DNA from: Leptogranulimonas caecicola
GTDB taxonomy: Bacteria > Actinomycetota > Coriobacteriia > Coriobacteriales > Atopobiaceae
DNA length: 64,000 bases
Direction of reading: 5' to 3'
Assembly (NCBI RefSeq): GCF_023168405.1
Contig: NZ_AP025285.1
Location: forward strand, 1,548,001-1,612,000
In this document: positions 52,241-59,457 of the stretch, piece by piece
Numbering within the stretch: the stretch's first letter is position 1
How the letters are laid out: each line of letters starts with the position of its first letter
Notes under the pieces: generated by a model
Told to the model about the DNA's origin: nothing
What the model saw: only the letters and a program-made list of their open reading frames with translations
Database searches by the model: none
Translations under genes and position numbers: made by a program

Positions 52241-52927
52241 ATGAAGGCACTGGATGCTCTCAATAAGCTCAGCGACCTATGTGCTCGCCAAAAGGGGTTA
52301 TTTACTTCGGCACAAGCCCAGGAAGTCGGTGTTAACCGCACCACTCTTACTCGCCTTGCCGCCCACCAGCAAATCGTTCCCATTGCACGCGGCGTCTACC
52401 GAGCCGCTACGGCGCCAGCGCTGCGAGAGGAACCTGTCTATGCCGCATGGCTTTCTTTGGATCCCAAAACTCCCGCTTGGAAGCGCAAGCTAGATAACAC
52501 CGATTACGTGGTCTCTCGTGAAACTGCTGCCTGGCTCTACGGATTCGACGAGTTTGATCCCAAACCCTATGCCTTTGCCAGCATCGAACGCAAGCAGACT
52601 CGCAACAAAGGCATCCACTTGTTCAAGCATGCAATCAAGCCTGAAGATGTGAGGGTAGTCGACGGCCTCCCCGTACTTTCGCGCCAACGCACTGCCACCG
52701 AGATTCTCAAGTATTGCCCCAATACTCGAGCGATCATCGATTTTTTAAGCACACTTACACCCGAAGAACGACCTTTGAGCATGATGCGGCTCCTTGGAAA
52801 TCGGGAGACAAAGTTCTCCTCTCTGGATGCCCATCAAATTAGATCTGTTTGCAACCTCTGGAGAAAAGAGGACCGCTCCCTAAGGAATGACTGGGGCACA
52901 GATCACACAGGTAGAGCCCATAGTTAG
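52241..52927 (+). CDS. AbiEi-like (type IV) antitoxin-domain protein, no toxin partner
   Basis: A 228-residue protein with an N-terminal winged helix typical of AbiEi antitoxins (KGLFTSAQAQEVGVNRTTLT, RLAAHQQIVPIARGVYR), then a C-terminal domain of the AbiEi kind (YVVSRETAAWLYGFDEFDP, GLPVLSRQRTATEIL). In AbiE systems such a protein represses its own promoter and neutralises the AbiEii nucleotidyltransferase. Here no nucleotidyltransferase gene follows, so it is solitary; it may act as a regulator or guard. GGAAGGATCACT precedes the ATG. A likely promoter is TTGCAA-17-TATTGA about 70 nt upstream. The gene is AT-richer than its neighbours and sits between inverted repeats, which suggests transfer. 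Confidence 0.75.
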   Translation: MKALDALNKLSDLCARQKGLFTSAQAQEVGVNRTTLTRLAAHQQIVPIARGVYRAATAPALREEPVYAAWLSLDPKTPAWKRKLDNTDYVVSRETAAWLYGFDEFDPKPYAFASIERKQTRNKGIHLFKHAIKPEDVRVVDGLPVLSRQRTATEILKYCPNTRAIIDFLSTLTPEERPLSMMRLLGNRETKFSSLDAHQIRSVCNLWRKEDRSLRNDWGTDHTGRAHS

Positions 52928-53008
52928 TACTTCTTAGGAAGAGGGAGCACATGGACAGCTTTAGAGATCATCTGAAAAACCCTTAGCAGCCAGAGTTCAT
53001 ATCGCAGC

Positions 53009-53115
53009 CCCTCAAAATACTTACTTCACTTGTATCAATCTAAGACATGGCTAATGTGCGCTTTTTTCACATTAGCCATGTTCATTTGTAGCTAACGTAG
53101 ATAGTTTTCTGAGGG
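53009..53115. repeat. 107-bp palindromic element, copy A
   Basis: Ends CCCTCAAAA (53009-53017) and TTTTCTGAGGG (53105-53115) are near-inverted. The centre is a perfect 13-bp hairpin (53046-53058 with 53068-53080). Copy B at 59577-59681 has the same plan and size with a different but equally perfect stem. The rest of the 52,928-53,230 gap has no gene. Confidence 0.75.
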
Positions 53116-53230
53116 TCTGTCACCCCTCTTTTCTTGGCCCATTGATCGTTGGCCTTGGCCCTTCTTGGTTCTTCACAGCTATCTCGCCCCTCACCTTCCT
53201 AACTTCGCCGGGAGCTCTCCTGGCTCTTTC

Positions 53231-53899
53231 TCAGGCTCCTTCCACGTCGCGTGCGGCCTGGTACCACACCACCACGCCACACAGGCGCAAAGAGCGCTGC
53301 TCCACTATGAGATCGGGAGTGCCCCTTTCGTGAGACCAGGTAGAGAGCATGGCTACGCTGCCATTGGCCATATAGCGGCGTATCACTACGTTGGCATCGT
53401 CTACAAGCACCACCACAGAGCAGCCGTTATAGGGTGCCACTTGAGGATCCACCAGCAGCAGCGAGCCTGCGGGGTACACCTTGTTCATGGCGCCAGAATC
53501 CATCACTACAAAGAGGGCGTTGGGGTGGCGCTGGGCGATATCGGGAGGCGCATAGGCACTGCCTTTGCGTACCAACGTGGTGCCGTTGCCAGAGCGGATG
53601 TTGCGATAGCAGGGGTATTGGCAGGCAGCCAGCAACGTAGCTTTGGTCTTCTCGGCAGAAGCGCAAGTTGCCTCATCGGCATCTAGCGCTTGAGAGATTG
53701 CGCGAGGTCCTCCAAGGATCTCTTCGACGGTAACTCCGCACGCCGCAGCGATGCGAGCCAGGGAGTCTTTGCGCAAGAAGATGGCGTCGCGCTCCCACCG
53801 GGAGACGGTTTCTTGAGTTGTCCCCACCAATTGGGCAAAGGCCGTTTGCGAGAGGCCCTTTTGCCGGCGCAGGTGGCGTATGTTCTCGCCCACAGACAT
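53231..53899 (-). CDS. XRE-family regulator with S24-like domain lacking catalytic dyad
   Basis: A 222-residue regulator. Residues about 5-60 are a Cro/C1-type helix-turn-helix (IRHLRRQKGLSQTAFAQLVG, TTQETVSRWERD). The C-terminal ~100 residues match the LexA/S24 fold (YPAGSLLLVDPQ, GCSVVVLVDDANVVIRRY). The catalytic Ser normally found just before Met in GDSM is Ala here (SGAMN), and the catalytic Lys is Arg (VVIRRY). It should therefore not self-cleave; ligand or partner binding is more likely. The ATG at 53899 follows the stop of the arginine deiminase homologue by 5 nt, so the two are co-translated. It probably controls the divergent arginine genes. Confidence 0.85.
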   Translation of the reverse strand: MSVGENIRHLRRQKGLSQTAFAQLVGTTQETVSRWERDAIFLRKDSLARIAAACGVTVEEILGGPRAISQALDADEATCASAEKTKATLLAACQYPCYRNIRSGNGTTLVRKGSAYAPPDIAQRHPNALFVVMDSGAMNKVYPAGSLLLVDPQVAPYNGCSVVVLVDDANVVIRRYMANGSVAMLSTWSHERGTPDLIVEQRSLRLCGVVVWYQAARDVEGA

Positions 53900-53904
53900 G
53901 GAGG

Positions 53905-55197
53905 TCACTCCACAGTCTCGCGCCAGAGCGGCAATGCAAGGCTGCCGGGGCCGCCAAAGCCGTCGGTGAGCTCGATGGTGGGGACAGCGATGATGTCGAG
54001 GCCCGCTTTCTCCAGCAAGTCGTTGACGCGCAGGTTGCCCTGGCTTACACAGAGCACCCCGGGAGCAAGGCACAAAACGCCGATGGCCTCGCCTGCCAGC
54101 TCGGCGGCCAAGGAGCTGTCGGTACCGTCTACCTCGATGAACTTTAGGGGACCCTGGTGAAGGGCGCGCTTGAGCATAGCCTTGAGGCCGCCGCGCTCCT
54201 CCTCGATGCGCACCTCGCCTTTTTTGCGTCCGCGATGGAGGCGCAGGAGGGGGCCTTGCTCGGCCAGGCTGCGATCCATCAGGAAGGTGTCGCAGTCCAC
54301 GCGAGCTAGATAGGTGTCCAAATGCAGGCGGTTCCCGGTACCGGGGACGGGGATCACGTAGATGTCCTTGATATCTGAGGCGGGCATAGGAGCTGCGTCG
54401 CCGGATGGCGCACCATCCCTAGAGCCCCAAAGCAAATGGCGGGCAAGCACGTCGATGGCGGGGCCCTCGGTGCGGCTGGAAAGCCCTATGGCCAGGCTTT
54501 TGTCGGTAAGGTTGATAAGGTCGCCGCCCTCGATATGAAACGAGCAGCTGTGGTCGAGCCATTGGGGCGTGGAGCTAAACGCCGGCAGATGGCGCAGGAG
54601 GATCTGGTAGAGATCCACCTCGCGGGTACGGTCGCGCCAGTACATGGAGTTGCAAGTAAGCCCTCGGCCGATAGCCGTAACGGGATCACGCACAAAAAAG
54701 CTGGTGTTCATGGGGCGCGAGAGGAAAAGTTCGGGGTCGAAGGCGGTGTCGGTGCGCTGCGCCAAGGGAAAGGACGCAGGGCTCGCCAAGTTGGTCTGGC
54801 CGTAGCGCACCCCGTCATAGAGGGATTGCACCAGTTGTGCGGGGCTGCCTTGGGACAAGAAATAGTCGCGCAGGGCGCCGGTGAGCTCGGCGCCCTCTAC
54901 GGGGCTGTCGGCCACAAAGGCGTCCACGAGTTCCTGGCGGGCCTCAGGCGAAGCCTCCAGAGTCTGTTGCAGCGCGTCGCAGACCTCGATCACCTCTACA
55001 TCATGAGCCTTGAGCACGCCCACCAACGCATCGTGTTCCCGCTGGGCCTGCTCAAGGTCAAAGCTGCTGCGGCCTGGGCGCAAAGGAAACGCCTGGAAAA
55101 AGTCTCCGTGGGCCGTCTGCTGGGTTTCTCGCCCTGGGCGATGAACGATCGCCCGTCTGAGCGCGCCTATCTCGTTGGTTACCTGTACATAGCTCAT
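53905..55197 (-). CDS. arginine deiminase homologue lacking the catalytic cysteine
   Basis: A 430-residue member of the arginine deiminase family. It keeps the N-terminal EIGALRRAIVHRPGRE, the FVRDP Asp motif, HIEGGD (His/Glu region) and LHLDT (His). At the C-terminus, where active enzymes have GGPRCMSMP with the nucleophilic Cys, it has GGPGSLALP, so Ser419 (or nothing) replaces Cys. Deimination is therefore very unlikely. The frame is intact with a good site (AAGGGAGAGATC), so it is a maintained pseudoenzyme rather than a decayed gene. It is the first gene of an operon with the XRE/S24-like regulator and diverges from the transporter-arcA-arcB genes. Inference: it binds arginine or citrulline and signals to the regulator. 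Confidence 0.88.
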   Translation of the reverse strand: MSYVQVTNEIGALRRAIVHRPGRETQQTAHGDFFQAFPLRPGRSSFDLEQAQREHDALVGVLKAHDVEVIEVCDALQQTLEASPEARQELVDAFVADSPVEGAELTGALRDYFLSQGSPAQLVQSLYDGVRYGQTNLASPASFPLAQRTDTAFDPELFLSRPMNTSFFVRDPVTAIGRGLTCNSMYWRDRTREVDLYQILLRHLPAFSSTPQWLDHSCSFHIEGGDLINLTDKSLAIGLSSRTEGPAIDVLARHLLWGSRDGAPSGDAAPMPASDIKDIYVIPVPGTGNRLHLDTYLARVDCDTFLMDRSLAEQGPLLRLHRGRKKGEVRIEEERGGLKAMLKRALHQGPLKFIEVDGTDSSLAAELAGEAIGVLCLAPGVLCVSQGNLRVNDLLEKAGLDIIAVPTIELTDGFGGPGSLALPLWRETVE

Positions 55198-55277
55198 GAT
55201 CTCTCCCTTGCTTCAGCCTCACCCTAGCGCATTGGAAACAGCTCTCCCAGCTATAGGAGGCCTATATGATATTGCGC

Positions 55278-55314
55278 GTCATATTTTTTGAGATTTATGA
55301 CAGTCTACGTCATA
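55278..55314. promoter_or_regulatory. candidate operator between divergent arginine operons
   Basis: GTCATA (55278-55283) and TATGAC (55296-55301) form an inverted repeat with a 12-bp spacer, and another GTCATA is at 55309-55314. They sit in the 262-bp gap between the two divergent arginine operons. This is a natural site for the XRE regulator or an ArgR-type protein; I could not assign promoter boxes firmly. Confidence 0.4.
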
Positions 55315-55459
55315 GGCTACGCCATTTAAAGGACAGATCCCCTCTCTGATGCCCCTTCCTCCCTCGCCTCGCAACTCTGAACCCCATGATGGCCTCATTG
55401 GTAAAGGCCAAGGTGAAGCCCCACAAGAGCCTCGCCCAAGCTTGCAAGAGAGGAGTCCC

Positions 55460-56893
55460 ATGAGTCAGAAAACAAAGAAGGCCTTCGCGGTACCCCACAC
55501 CTACACCATCATCTTTGCCCTGATGGTTCTGGTGGCAGCGCTCACGTGGGTGGTGCCCTCAGGCGTGTTTGACACCGCCGAGGTCAACGGCCGCGAAGTG
55601 ACCGTCGCAGGCACCTATCATGAGGTGGACAAAGTGAGCGTGGATCCCGAGACCGGCGATGAGGTGGATCTTCGCCAGGGCGTCAACGCAGTGCTCGAAG
55701 CACCTACTCTGGGCATCCAGGAAGCCATCGAAGTGGTTGCCTTTGTGTTTGTGGTGGGCGGCTCGTTCCAAATCATCACCGCCACAGGAGCCATCGACGC
55801 CGGCATGCGCCGAGTGGTCAGGCGCTTCAAGTCTAAAGACATCGTGGTGATCCCCGTTGCCATGCTGCTCTTCGCCCTGGGCGGCTCGACCTTTGGCATG
55901 GCCGAGGAGACCTTGCCCTTCTTCGCCATCTTCCTGCCCATCATGATCACCATGGGCTTCGATTCCATCACAGCTTTCATGATCGTCTTCTTGGGCGCCA
56001 AGGCTGGCTATGTGGCTTCCACCATCAACCCCTTCAGCGTCCTCATCTCCCAGGGCATCTTAGGGATCACCGGCAACCCTCAGCTGTGGCTGCGAGCCAT
56101 CATGTTCGTGGTCATCGTGGGCCTCACCATTGCCTTCGTGATGCTCTATGCCACCCGCATCCGCAAGAACCCCGAGAAGTCCCTCACCTACCATGAGGAT
56201 CAAGTCCTGCGCCAAGACATCAAGACCGTGGATGAGGAGACCCCCTTCACCGGTCAGCAAAAAGCCGTGTTGGCAGTCTTCATAGGCGGCATCGCCCTCA
56301 TCGTCTGGGGCCTGGTGAGCCAGGGTTGGTACATGAACGAGCTCTCCGCCATCTTCTTGGCCATGGGCATCATCTCGGGCATCATCGCCGGCTTCGGCCA
56401 GAAGCGCATCGCCGAGGAGTTCGTGGCCGGCCTTAAGGACTTCGCCTTCTCCGCCATCGTCATCGGCCTTGCCCGCGGCGTCCTGGTCATCGCCAACAAC
56501 GGCATGATCATCGACACCATCTTGAACGACATGGCCAACGGCCTCGCAGGAGTCCCCAGCGCCATCTTCACCTCCATCCTCTACCTGCTGGAAAACCTGC
56601 TCACCATCCTGGTGCCCAGCTCATCCAGCCTGGCCGCCCTCACCATGCCCATCTTTGGGCCCCTCACCGAGCTCATGGGCCTGAACCCCGAAGGCGCCGT
56701 CACCGCCCTCTGCCTGGCCGAGCCTATGATGACTATCATGGCCCCCACCTCCGCCATCCTGGTGGCCGGCCTGGCCGTCTGCAAGATCAGCCTGGAGAAG
56801 TGGTGGAAGGTCTCCTGGAAGTACTTTTTGGCCATGTCCCTTGTCTGCATGGTCTTCACCGCCATCTCGGCCATGCTCCCCGTGGTGGCCTAG
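55460..56893 (+). CDS. YfcC/DcuC-superfamily transporter of the arginine island
   Basis: A 477-residue polytopic membrane protein (about 12-13 helices) of the YfcC group in the C4-dicarboxylate anaerobic carrier superfamily. It has an early helix (TIIFALMVLVAALTWVVPSG), conserved GGSTFGMAEETLPF and YVASTINPFS loops, and the late LVPSSSSLAALTMPI. In several bacteria relatives sit with arginine deiminase genes and act as arginine/ornithine exchangers; context supports that role here. The ATG at 55460 has GAGAGGAG 4 nt upstream and the frame is open 37 codons earlier without a site. First gene of the plus-strand arginine operon. Confidence 0.85.
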   Translation: MSQKTKKAFAVPHTYTIIFALMVLVAALTWVVPSGVFDTAEVNGREVTVAGTYHEVDKVSVDPETGDEVDLRQGVNAVLEAPTLGIQEAIEVVAFVFVVGGSFQIITATGAIDAGMRRVVRRFKSKDIVVIPVAMLLFALGGSTFGMAEETLPFFAIFLPIMITMGFDSITAFMIVFLGAKAGYVASTINPFSVLISQGILGITGNPQLWLRAIMFVVIVGLTIAFVMLYATRIRKNPEKSLTYHEDQVLRQDIKTVDEETPFTGQQKAVLAVFIGGIALIVWGLVSQGWYMNELSAIFLAMGIISGIIAGFGQKRIAEEFVAGLKDFAFSAIVIGLARGVLVIANNGMIIDTILNDMANGLAGVPSAIFTSILYLLENLLTILVPSSSSLAALTMPIFGPLTELMGLNPEGAVTALCLAEPMMTIMAPTSAILVAGLAVCKISLEKWWKVSWKYFLAMSLVCMVFTAISAMLPVVA

Positions 56894-57020: not shown

Positions 57021-58268
57021 ATGTCCCCTAAGCCAATCCATGTGACCAGCGAGATTGGGTCTTTGCAGCGCGTGGTGCTCCACCGTCCCGGCAAAGAGCT
57101 GGCCAACATGAAAGCCGACGAGTTTGAGAAGTGCTGGATCCACGACGCCTTCTATCTGGACTACGCCCAGAAGGAGCACGACGAGTTTGCCCGCCTCCTG
57201 CGCGAACACGGCGCCGAGGTGCTCTATATGGAAGACCTGCTGGCCGAGGCCATGGACCAGCACCCCGAGGCCCGCACCGCCTTCCTCGACGAGTACATGA
57301 GCCAGGCCCCTGTGCCCGACCCTGAGCTGGCACCGCTGGTGCGCCAGAAGCTGGACGCCATCCGCGACAACCGCGCACTGGTGGATGCGGCGCTGGCGGG
57401 GATGCGCCTCAAGGACCTGGAGCTTGCCTCTGGCCCTACCACCCTCTCGCGTCTGGAGGGTGACGGCGTGGCCCTGGACGACTTTGTGGTCTTTTCCATG
57501 CCCTCCAGCTACTTCTCCCGCGACCCCATCGCCTCCATCTCCAACGGCGTCGCGCTCCATCGCATGTATTACAACCAGCGCAATCGCGAGGTGCCCTTCT
57601 ACAAGACCTTCCTCACCTACCACGACGACTTCGCCGGCACGCCCTTCTGGTACGACAACCACTCTGCAGCCCACATCGAGGGCGGCGACGTGCTCAACAT
57701 CAACGCCGCCACGCTGGCAGTGGGCATCTCCCAGCGCACCGAGGCTGCGGCCATTGACCAGCTGGCCCAGAACCTCTTCTGGGGTCCTGTGCCTTCCACC
57801 ATCGAGCAGATCTTCGCCATCAAGGTGCCCTACGGCTACGAGACCATGCACTTGGACACCGTGTGCACCCAGATCGACTACGACAAGTTCACCGTCTACC
57901 CCGGCATGTACGACGAGTTGCGCGCTTACCGTCTGCACAAGGGCGACACCCCAGGCGAGGTGGGCATCGACGAGCTTACCGGATCGCTCAAGGAGATCTT
58001 GGAGATTGCCACCGGCGAGCCCGAGATCACCCTCTTCGAGTGCGGCGGCGGCGACCCGGTAGAGGCCTCCCGCGAGCAATGGAACGACGGTTCCAACACC
58101 CTCGCCCTCGCCCCCGGCAAAGTCTGCGTCTACGAGCGCAACACCGTCACCAACGACCTGCTCTACAAGGCCGGCATCGAGCTTTGTGTTGTTCCCTCCG
58201 AGGAGCTCTCCCGCGGCCGCGGCGGCCCCCGCTGCATGTCCATGCCGTTCGCGCGTGCCGACATCTAG
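57021..58268 (+). CDS. arcA: arginine deiminase (catalytically intact)
   Basis: A 415-residue enzyme hydrolysing arginine to citrulline and ammonia, the first step of the deiminase pathway for ATP and acid tolerance. All family motifs are present: VVLHRPGKEL, YFSRDPIASISNG (catalytic Asp), HIEGGDVLNIN (His/Glu), MHLDTVC (His) and the nucleophilic Cys in GRGGPRCMSMP at the C-terminus. AGAAAGG is 7 nt before the ATG at 57021. It is placed between the transporter and arcB, each gap carrying a strong hairpin. The minus-strand homologue nearby lacks the Cys. Confidence 0.96.
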   Translation: MSPKPIHVTSEIGSLQRVVLHRPGKELANMKADEFEKCWIHDAFYLDYAQKEHDEFARLLREHGAEVLYMEDLLAEAMDQHPEARTAFLDEYMSQAPVPDPELAPLVRQKLDAIRDNRALVDAALAGMRLKDLELASGPTTLSRLEGDGVALDDFVVFSMPSSYFSRDPIASISNGVALHRMYYNQRNREVPFYKTFLTYHDDFAGTPFWYDNHSAAHIEGGDVLNINAATLAVGISQRTEAAAIDQLAQNLFWGPVPSTIEQIFAIKVPYGYETMHLDTVCTQIDYDKFTVYPGMYDELRAYRLHKGDTPGEVGIDELTGSLKEILEIATGEPEITLFECGGGDPVEASREQWNDGSNTLALAPGKVCVYERNTVTNDLLYKAGIELCVVPSEELSRGRGGPRCMSMPFARADI

Positions 58269-58449: not shown

Positions 58450-59457
58450 ATGCCCCTGAGTCTTTCTGGCAAAAGTTTCCTCACTCTGTTGGACTTCACT
58501 CCCGAAGAGATCAACTACCTGCTTGACCTTGCCCACCAGTTCAAAGCCATGAAGCGCAACGGGGTGCCTCATCGCTACCTGGAGGGCAAGAACATCGTCC
58601 TGCTTTTTGAGAAGACTTCCACCCGCACCCGCTGCGCCTTTGAAGTAGGCGCCATGGACCTGGGCATGGGCGTCACCTACCTGGCTCCCGACAGCTCCCA
58701 GATGGGCGCCAAGGAGTCCATCGAAGATACCGCCCGCGTACTGGGTCGCATGTATGACGGCATCGAGTACCGTGGCTTTGACCAGAGCATCGTGGAGGAG
58801 CTGGCTGCCAATGCTGGCGTGCCTGTATGGAACGGCCTCACCACCCAGCTTCACCCCACCCAAGCCCTAGCCGACATCATGACTATGCAAGAGGAGTTTG
58901 GCCATGACCTGCGCGGCAAGACCCTAGCTTTCTTTGGCCAGGTAGGAAATACTGCCGGCTCACTTTTGGTCATCTGTGCCCAACTGGGCATCAACTTCGT
59001 GCAAGTGGGCCCCCAGTCTCAGGTAGAAGGCAACCGCACCTACGATCCCCAGATGCTGGCCCGCTGCCAAGCCCTGGCTGCCGAGCACGGCTCCACCATC
59101 AAGATCACCGACAGCATTGAGAACGGCATCCAAGGAGTCGATGCCGTGTACACCGACGTGTGGGTAGGCATGGGACAGCCCTCCGAGCTTTGGAAGAGCC
59201 GCATCGCACTGCTGGAGCCCTACCGCGTCACCGCCGACGTGATGGCCGCCGCAAACCCCGGCGCCATCTTCATGCACTGCTTGCCTTCCTTCCACGACAC
59301 GAACACCACCGTGGGCGCCCAGATCGCCCAGGAGTTTGGCGTAACCGAGATGGAAGTTACCGACGAGGTCTTTGAGTCTGCACAGTCTCGCGTGTTCCAA
59401 GAAGCCGAGAACCGCATGCATACCATCAAGGCTGTGATGTACGCCACGTTGAAGTAA
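58450..59457 (+). CDS. arcB: ornithine carbamoyltransferase (catabolic)
   Basis: A 335-residue enzyme. In this context it splits citrulline with phosphate into ornithine and carbamoyl phosphate. Motifs: carbamoyl-phosphate site STRTR, HPTQALAD, ornithine-binding DVWVGMG, and HCLPSFHD (usual HCLPAFHD). The length matches catabolic OTCs. AAAGGA lies 7 nt before the ATG at 58450; the frame is open much further upstream through the hairpin but has no site there. No carbamate kinase (arcC) gene follows in the window, so that last step must be coded elsewhere or be absent. Confidence 0.95.
   Translation: MPLSLSGKSFLTLLDFTPEEINYLLDLAHQFKAMKRNGVPHRYLEGKNIVLLFEKTSTRTRCAFEVGAMDLGMGVTYLAPDSSQMGAKESIEDTARVLGRMYDGIEYRGFDQSIVEELAANAGVPVWNGLTTQLHPTQALADIMTMQEEFGHDLRGKTLAFFGQVGNTAGSLLVICAQLGINFVQVGPQSQVEGNRTYDPQMLARCQALAAEHGSTIKITDSIENGIQGVDAVYTDVWVGMGQPSELWKSRIALLEPYRVTADVMAAANPGAIFMHCLPSFHDTNTTVGAQIAQEFGVTEMEVTDEVFESAQSRVFQEAENRMHTIKAVMYATLK

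Follow-up and report, generated by a model that had tools for sequence, protein, structure and literature searches.

In the Gal3/Gal80 system of yeast, Gal3 is a paralogue of the first enzyme of the pathway, devoid of activity, which senses the substrate and acts on the regulator. That an enzyme-derived sensor controls an XRE regulator is a known principle: in BzdR of Azoarcus, an XRE DNA-binding domain is fused to a shikimate-kinase-like effector/sensor domain that has lost its activity (PMC3602430), while the Stl repressor of SaPI is relieved by binding phage dUTPase (PMC5593958). The fold of guanidine-modifying enzymes also exists without key catalytic residues, as in RESC5 of Trypanosoma brucei (PMC9980740). 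How enzymes evolve into regulators is an old question, for which there are few natural intermediates.

Here, we analyse a locus of Leptogranulimonas caecicola, found in a stretch of 64,000 nucleotides of contig NZ_AP025285.1 (hereafter the window), where a homologue of arginine deiminase (ADI), which we name pADI, is paired with an XRE regulator whose start lies 5 nt past the pADI stop codon on the same (−) strand (Table 1). The pair is divergent from a transporter–arcA–arcB operon (+ strand). A previous examination of these letters and their open reading frames (the sequence-only reading) had described this layout, an intact ADI homologue with GGPGS in place of GGPRC, an S24 domain in which Ser and Lys have become Ala and Arg, and a divergent operon carrying the GGPRC enzyme, all of which is confirmed (the operon encoding a DcuC-family transporter, an ADI and an ornithine carbamoyltransferase). 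A scan for sigma-70 promoters over 53000–55500 found none. Beside the pair, an AbiEi-type antitoxin-like gene (52241–52927, + strand; PADLOC AbiEi 7e-52, Pfam AbiEi_4) looks orphan, no AbiEii-type toxin gene being seen directly downstream.

Table 1. Genes and operator-like sites of the locus (window coordinates).
Feature	Position	Strand	Description
XRE regulator	53231..53899	-	222 aa; LexA/CI-like S24 domain; Pfam HTH_31/HTH_3 and Peptidase_S24
pADI	53905..55197	-	430 aa; ADI paralogue; intact frame; Pfam ADI 5e-59
O1	55265..55283	.	operator-like palindrome TATGATATTGCGCGTCATA, one mismatch
O2	55296..55314	.	operator-like palindrome TATGACAGTCTACGTCATA, perfect TATGAC-N7-GTCATA, 31 bp from O1
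Transporter	55460..56893	+	DcuC family; opens the divergent operon; presumably carries arginine/ornithine
arcA	57021..58268	+	ADI of the module, with intact GGPRC motif
arcB	58450..59457	+	ornithine carbamoyltransferase

By analogy with BzdR, pADI may be an inactive enzyme fold serving as the ligand sensor for the HTH protein that regulates a catabolic operon. However, BzdR is a single polypeptide of another fold, and no paralogy has been reported between its enzyme ancestor and a neighbouring pathway enzyme, whereas pADI and XRE are two genes in every genome, the regulator is of the S24 type and the candidate sensor has members both with and without the catalytic Cys. With Stl and dUTPase, the locus would share a phage-type repressor relieved through an enzyme-fold protein, the contact here being a putative one hinted at by coevolution; in contrast, dUTPase is usually active, comes from a helper phage and controls an island instead of a catabolic operon. 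The Gal3/Gal80 pair differs in that it is eukaryotic, has a kinase fold and works through the inhibitor of an activator. Regarding the components themselves, pADI resembles ArcA (TIGR01078, PF02274) in its fold, length and most of its pocket, but Arg401 is replaced by Phe/Tyr, the REQW.DGSN stretch is missing and the Cys is mostly absent, while XRE has the HTH and S24-like C-terminal domains of phage 186 CI, lambda CI and LexA, but belongs to a metabolic module, without the Ser/Lys dyad and without prophage genes nearby. Finally, the structural model of pADI matches RESC5 (Z 20.6), which differs in being a DDAH-like RNA-editing scaffold with no link to a transcription factor. What is new here is the two-gene form, the paralogy with the pathway’s own enzyme and the graded catalytic loss. 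The sequence-only reading knew of no described system with such a pairing, and our searches of the open-access literature agree: neither inactive ADI homologues nor ADI–XRE pairs returned anything relevant, and no paper describing such a regulator of arginine catabolism was found. The pADI–XRE module is both real and conserved and, as far as the open literature searched goes, apparently undescribed.

Active Site and Fold of pADI

The motifs FVRDP (D171), HIEGGD (E223) and LHLDT (H292, D294) are present in pADI. To compare residues, pADI was aligned with 94 ArcA sequences and numbered after P. aeruginosa ADI by sequence match, the functional role of each pocket residue of the latter being taken here as established. 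The catalytic Asp166, Glu224, His278 and Asp280 (D171, E223, H292 and D294 in the window) and the substrate-binding Arg185 and Arg243 (R190 and R242) are kept in all 13 distinct pADI sequences, while only 27 of the 88 ArcA-invariant positions are kept in every pADI; if positions are treated as independent, all six would be retained by chance with a probability of about 5e-4. In contrast, position 401, an arginine-binding Arg in P. aeruginosa ADI and in 94/94 ArcA, is Phe or Tyr in every pADI (Phe414 in the window), so that the Arg185/Arg243/Arg401 set of an active ADI is incomplete, and the ArcA-invariant REQW.DGSN stretch is lost. With six residues kept and these two elements gone, the pADI pocket is therefore partly maintained, though not as a normal site of arginine turnover, and, with Arg401 gone in all members, the ligand may be something other than L-arginine itself.

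The catalytic Cys406 (S419 in the window) is Ser in 10 of the 16 genomes with pADI and Cys in the other six. The latter, which are Collinsella and one Enorma genome, have GGPNC, GGPSC, GGTNC or GGPHC motifs, while in the genus of the window the whole C-terminal motif (GGPGSLALP) is devoid of any Cys. The “dead enzyme” of the sequence-only reading thus fits the Ser lineage only, and pADI may still be an enzyme in the six Cys-keeping genomes; in Collinsella and in genome G393, the Asp/Glu/His/Asp/Cys set is complete, and Arg401 and the REQW.DGSN stretch are changed. The idea that Cys loss defines the pADI family has to be abandoned, the replacement of Arg401 by Phe/Tyr being the feature common to all. 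As regards the TIGR01078 equivalog cut-off (489.1 bits), pADI falls below it (219.7 bits), as does the ArcA of the module, in which all motifs are present (416 bits).

The AlphaFold model of pADI (pLDDT 82, pTM 0.84) is best matched by solved ADIs (1lxy, Z 46.6 over 397 residues), and pADI is accordingly predicted to adopt the five-bladed ADI fold with its helical insert. Another of its structure matches, 2A9G, is P. aeruginosa ADI with the C406A mutation, in complex with L-arginine, which means that an ADI without Cys can hold arginine.

Taxonomic Distribution of the Module

The pair was found in 16 of 345 Coriobacteriales genomes and in all three families searched, i.e., 2 of 140 Atopobiaceae (the family of the window), 6 of 138 Eggerthellaceae and 8 of 67 Coriobacteriaceae, these family names being deduced from named records. 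The arrangement is therefore neither a product of chance nor peculiar to this locus. Among the 140 genomes of its own family, pADI is restricted to the genus of the window; class and family searches, along with a scan of named genomes, add Rubneribacter, Adlercreutzia, Parvibacter, Collinsella (including C. aerofaciens) and Enorma. The sequence-only reading had proposed such a search, holding that conserved pairs with retained ligand residues would support a sensor, and the outcome is favourable, since the XRE gene adjoins pADI in 16/16 genomes, always as a separate gene, neither module-type gene was found without its partner among the genomes searched, and the six ligand and catalytic residues are retained. 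All pADI frames are open. The pair is divergent from a transporter–arcA operon in 15 of the 16 genomes, one contig stopping within arcA. C. massiliensis has a rearranged module and an XRE gene (L067 8939-9640) interrupted by a frameshift, which may be a sequencing error or decay.

Scored with a profile of the regulators, module-type XREs reach 320–360 bits (211 in G393; in C. massiliensis, the frameshift divides the match) and are confined to the genomes with pADI, whereas the best non-module XRE, evidently a prophage repressor beside an integrase gene, reaches 176 bits; it should be noted that module members served to build the profiles, a choice favourable to such a separation. However, the first single-sequence search had already recovered 15 of the 16 pADI genomes. 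Beyond Coriobacteriales, the loci of Nocardioides and of an Olavius symbiont encode ordinary GGPRC/GGG[HR]C ADIs, as do those of Atopobiaceae MAGs and of a further Collinsella MAG, the motif being unreadable in one Nocardioides ORF and one truncated Bacilli ORF, while a sample of 396 Actinomycetota yielded known pADI members only.

Origin, Selection and Coevolution

In a maximum-likelihood tree of ADIs computed without the C-terminal motif, pADI sequences form one clade (support 100/96) beside the module’s own ArcA. This position points to a duplication of arcA inside the module as the origin of pADI. A single Cys to Ser change on the tree suffices and all ArcA have the Cys; consequently, the Cys of the six genomes looks ancestral and lost in the other lineage. 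This bears on the sequence-only reading, which had named a restored Cys as evidence against a sensor: the Cys does exist in some relatives, which weighs in part against “dead enzyme” as a description of the whole family, although it does not look restored. Placement of the long branches is uncertain, above all that of G393, and the branch splitting off the Ser lineage has modest support (85/79). The pADI of the window groups among those of Eggerthellaceae, next to Rubneribacter, while its host genome, whose nearest named relative is Olsenella sp. KGMB02461, belongs to Atopobiaceae, so the module probably moved between families.

Between the genome of the window and a congener, dN/dS amounts to 0.10 for pADI, 0.15 for XRE, 0.03 for ArcA and 0.02 for ArcB; pADI is under purifying selection. 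Decay with stop codons, the other outcome that the earlier reading had set against itself, is not seen, and the pseudogene interpretation is ruled out by the open frames and this dN/dS. Mean distances are matched for pADI (1.52) and XRE (1.54), versus 0.67 for ArcA and 0.50 for the transporter. After removal of ArcA and the transporter, the partial correlation of rates between pADI and XRE is 0.59 (permutation p 0.006). pADI coevolves with XRE, although coevolution within a single operon can also arise in other ways.

The XRE Regulator and Its Putative Operators

According to Pfam, fold matches and its best phage family (PHROG 4, phage transcriptional repressor), XRE has the N-terminal HTH_3 and C-terminal S24-like fold of CI-like repressors. 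Its structural model is similar to LexA and to the CI proteins of phages 186 and lambda, with a pTM of only 0.56, i.e., the domains are reliable, but not their arrangement. The Ser–Lys dyad of the S24 domain is gone (Ala137 before Met in SGAMN, Arg174 in VVIRRY), the Lys being Arg in every module XRE and the Ser being replaced in all but G393. The protease-dead regulator of the sequence-only reading thus stands as an observation but is not distinctive: Coriobacteriales XRE-S24 homologues with Ser replaced by Cys and Lys by Arg are common, prophage repressors included, so that the dead domain is the legacy of a non-cleaving repressor family, unremarkable alone. That it would be peculiar to this gene is ruled out. 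Two identical prophage-like blocks lie about 42 kb apart (L191 5848-6522 and L192 5757-6431); each has a tyrosine integrase gene and encodes a CI-like repressor of XRE type, likewise with Cys and Arg at these positions. Among the neighbours read, no similar pair associating a paralogous XRE gene with another enzyme paralogue was seen.

Two or more adjacent operators are established for CI. In nearly all modules, TGAC-N7-GTCA palindromes lie between the divergent start codons, most loci having two sites 30–31 bp apart, about three helical turns, and O2 is the sole perfect TATGAC-N7-GTCATA in its own 2.0-Mb genome. When TTGAC-Nx-GTCAA was searched with at most two mismatches in 13 intergenic regions, 15 occurrences (11 loci) were found at x = 7, versus at most 6 at each of the other spacings between 0 and 20, and 1.2 on average in shuffles. 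Operator pairs have a total score of 168, whereas 100 shuffles gave 121 on average and never more than 128. Moreover, full sites are absent from the 79 upstream regions of non-module arcA (23.7 kb), compared to eight in 3.9 kb of module DNA. Since the motif was chosen after seeing the sequences, the spacing and non-module controls outweigh the raw count. The palindromic sites are absent from the divergent pair of G393, whose XRE recognition helix reads TRRTIERWE instead of the T[KQ]ETV[SCG]RWE of the other module XREs. Judging from position and co-occurrence only, XRE would bind O1 and O2. By their conservation and their place between the two operons, these sites suggest a pair that senses arginine, or a relative of it, and switches a portable arginine-degrading module on and off.

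Proposed Mechanism and Alternative Explanations

We favour a two-protein switch in which a ligand-sensing enzyme paralogue, pADI, controls a CI-like XRE repressor, a reading that we regard as fairly probable. XRE would sit on O1/O2 and control the transporter–arcA–arcB and pADI–XRE operons alike. Its partner, a probable duplicate of the module arcA, has kept the residues holding the guanidinium and part of the carboxylate site, an aromatic residue having replaced Arg401 and, in the lineage of the window, the catalytic Cys having been lost as well. In its retained pocket, pADI would bind arginine or a related guanidino/ureido compound, and the ligand-bound form would contact XRE and alter its hold on DNA, where a normal S24 repressor would instead cleave itself. 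Such a contact would more likely relieve repression, or else be required for DNA binding. The broader claim is that of a hitherto undescribed two-protein metabolite switch, in which a duplicate of a pathway enzyme in graded catalytic loss (Arg401 in all, Cys in one lineage) would act as the sensor of a CI-like non-cleaving repressor, the whole sensor–repressor–operator–catabolism module moving between families; we give it an even chance.

ADIs being oligomers, pADI could alternatively be a regulatory, prozyme-like subunit that tunes the activity of ArcA, with XRE merely regulating the module from the same operon. Its paralogy with the module ArcA, their common fold and the constant company of arcA are compatible with this, but pADI is coupled to the XRE gene, not to arcA, in every genome and its rates track those of XRE beyond ArcA and the transporter, which makes such a subunit unlikely in our view. 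We are equally sceptical of an enzyme with a changed substrate (a guanidino compound lacking the usual carboxylate), at least in the Cys-keeping members, XRE then sensing alone: although the complete catalytic set of Collinsella and G393, where only Arg401 and REQW.DGSN are changed, is what one would expect from it, pairing and selection persist in the 10 of 16 genomes with Ser, Cys-free GGPGSLALP included.

It is also conceivable that XRE regulates the module in response to a different signal, perceived by its S24-like domain or via some other partner, while pADI does something unrelated, such as arginine buffering. Non-cleaving XRE-S24 proteins without pADI are indeed common in the order, yet every module-type XRE in the genomes searched is accompanied by pADI, and we hold this explanation to be very unlikely. 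As for a decaying pseudogene, which the lost Cys and the long branches of pADI might evoke, open frames, constrained evolution and pairing across three families leave it practically no credit.

Arginine Catabolism in Gut Actinomycetota

Within the pADI family, extant paralogues either have or lack the catalytic Cys, and all are associated with the same kind of repressor and, except for one divergent pair, with the same operators, which makes the order of events directly testable. The pADI–XRE pair is also a candidate for a dedicated regulator of arginine catabolism in Collinsella, Adlercreutzia and other gut Actinomycetota; their relative Eggerthella lenta has the ADI pathway as one of its main sources of energy (PMC10234575).

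Additional arginine genes were observed in several of these genomes. A further intact arcA, with arcB, exists elsewhere in the genome of the window (L003, C1:1212057-1213289), and the module operator sites are absent upstream. One Enorma genome (L066 11773-16928) has two back-to-back arginine operons around its pADI–XRE pair, the second of which has two arcA in tandem and no operator sites upstream. Finally, two near-identical tandem arcA about 3 kb apart are found in several Collinsella genomes (G255:C29, G281:C1, G284:C7, G371:C1 and others).
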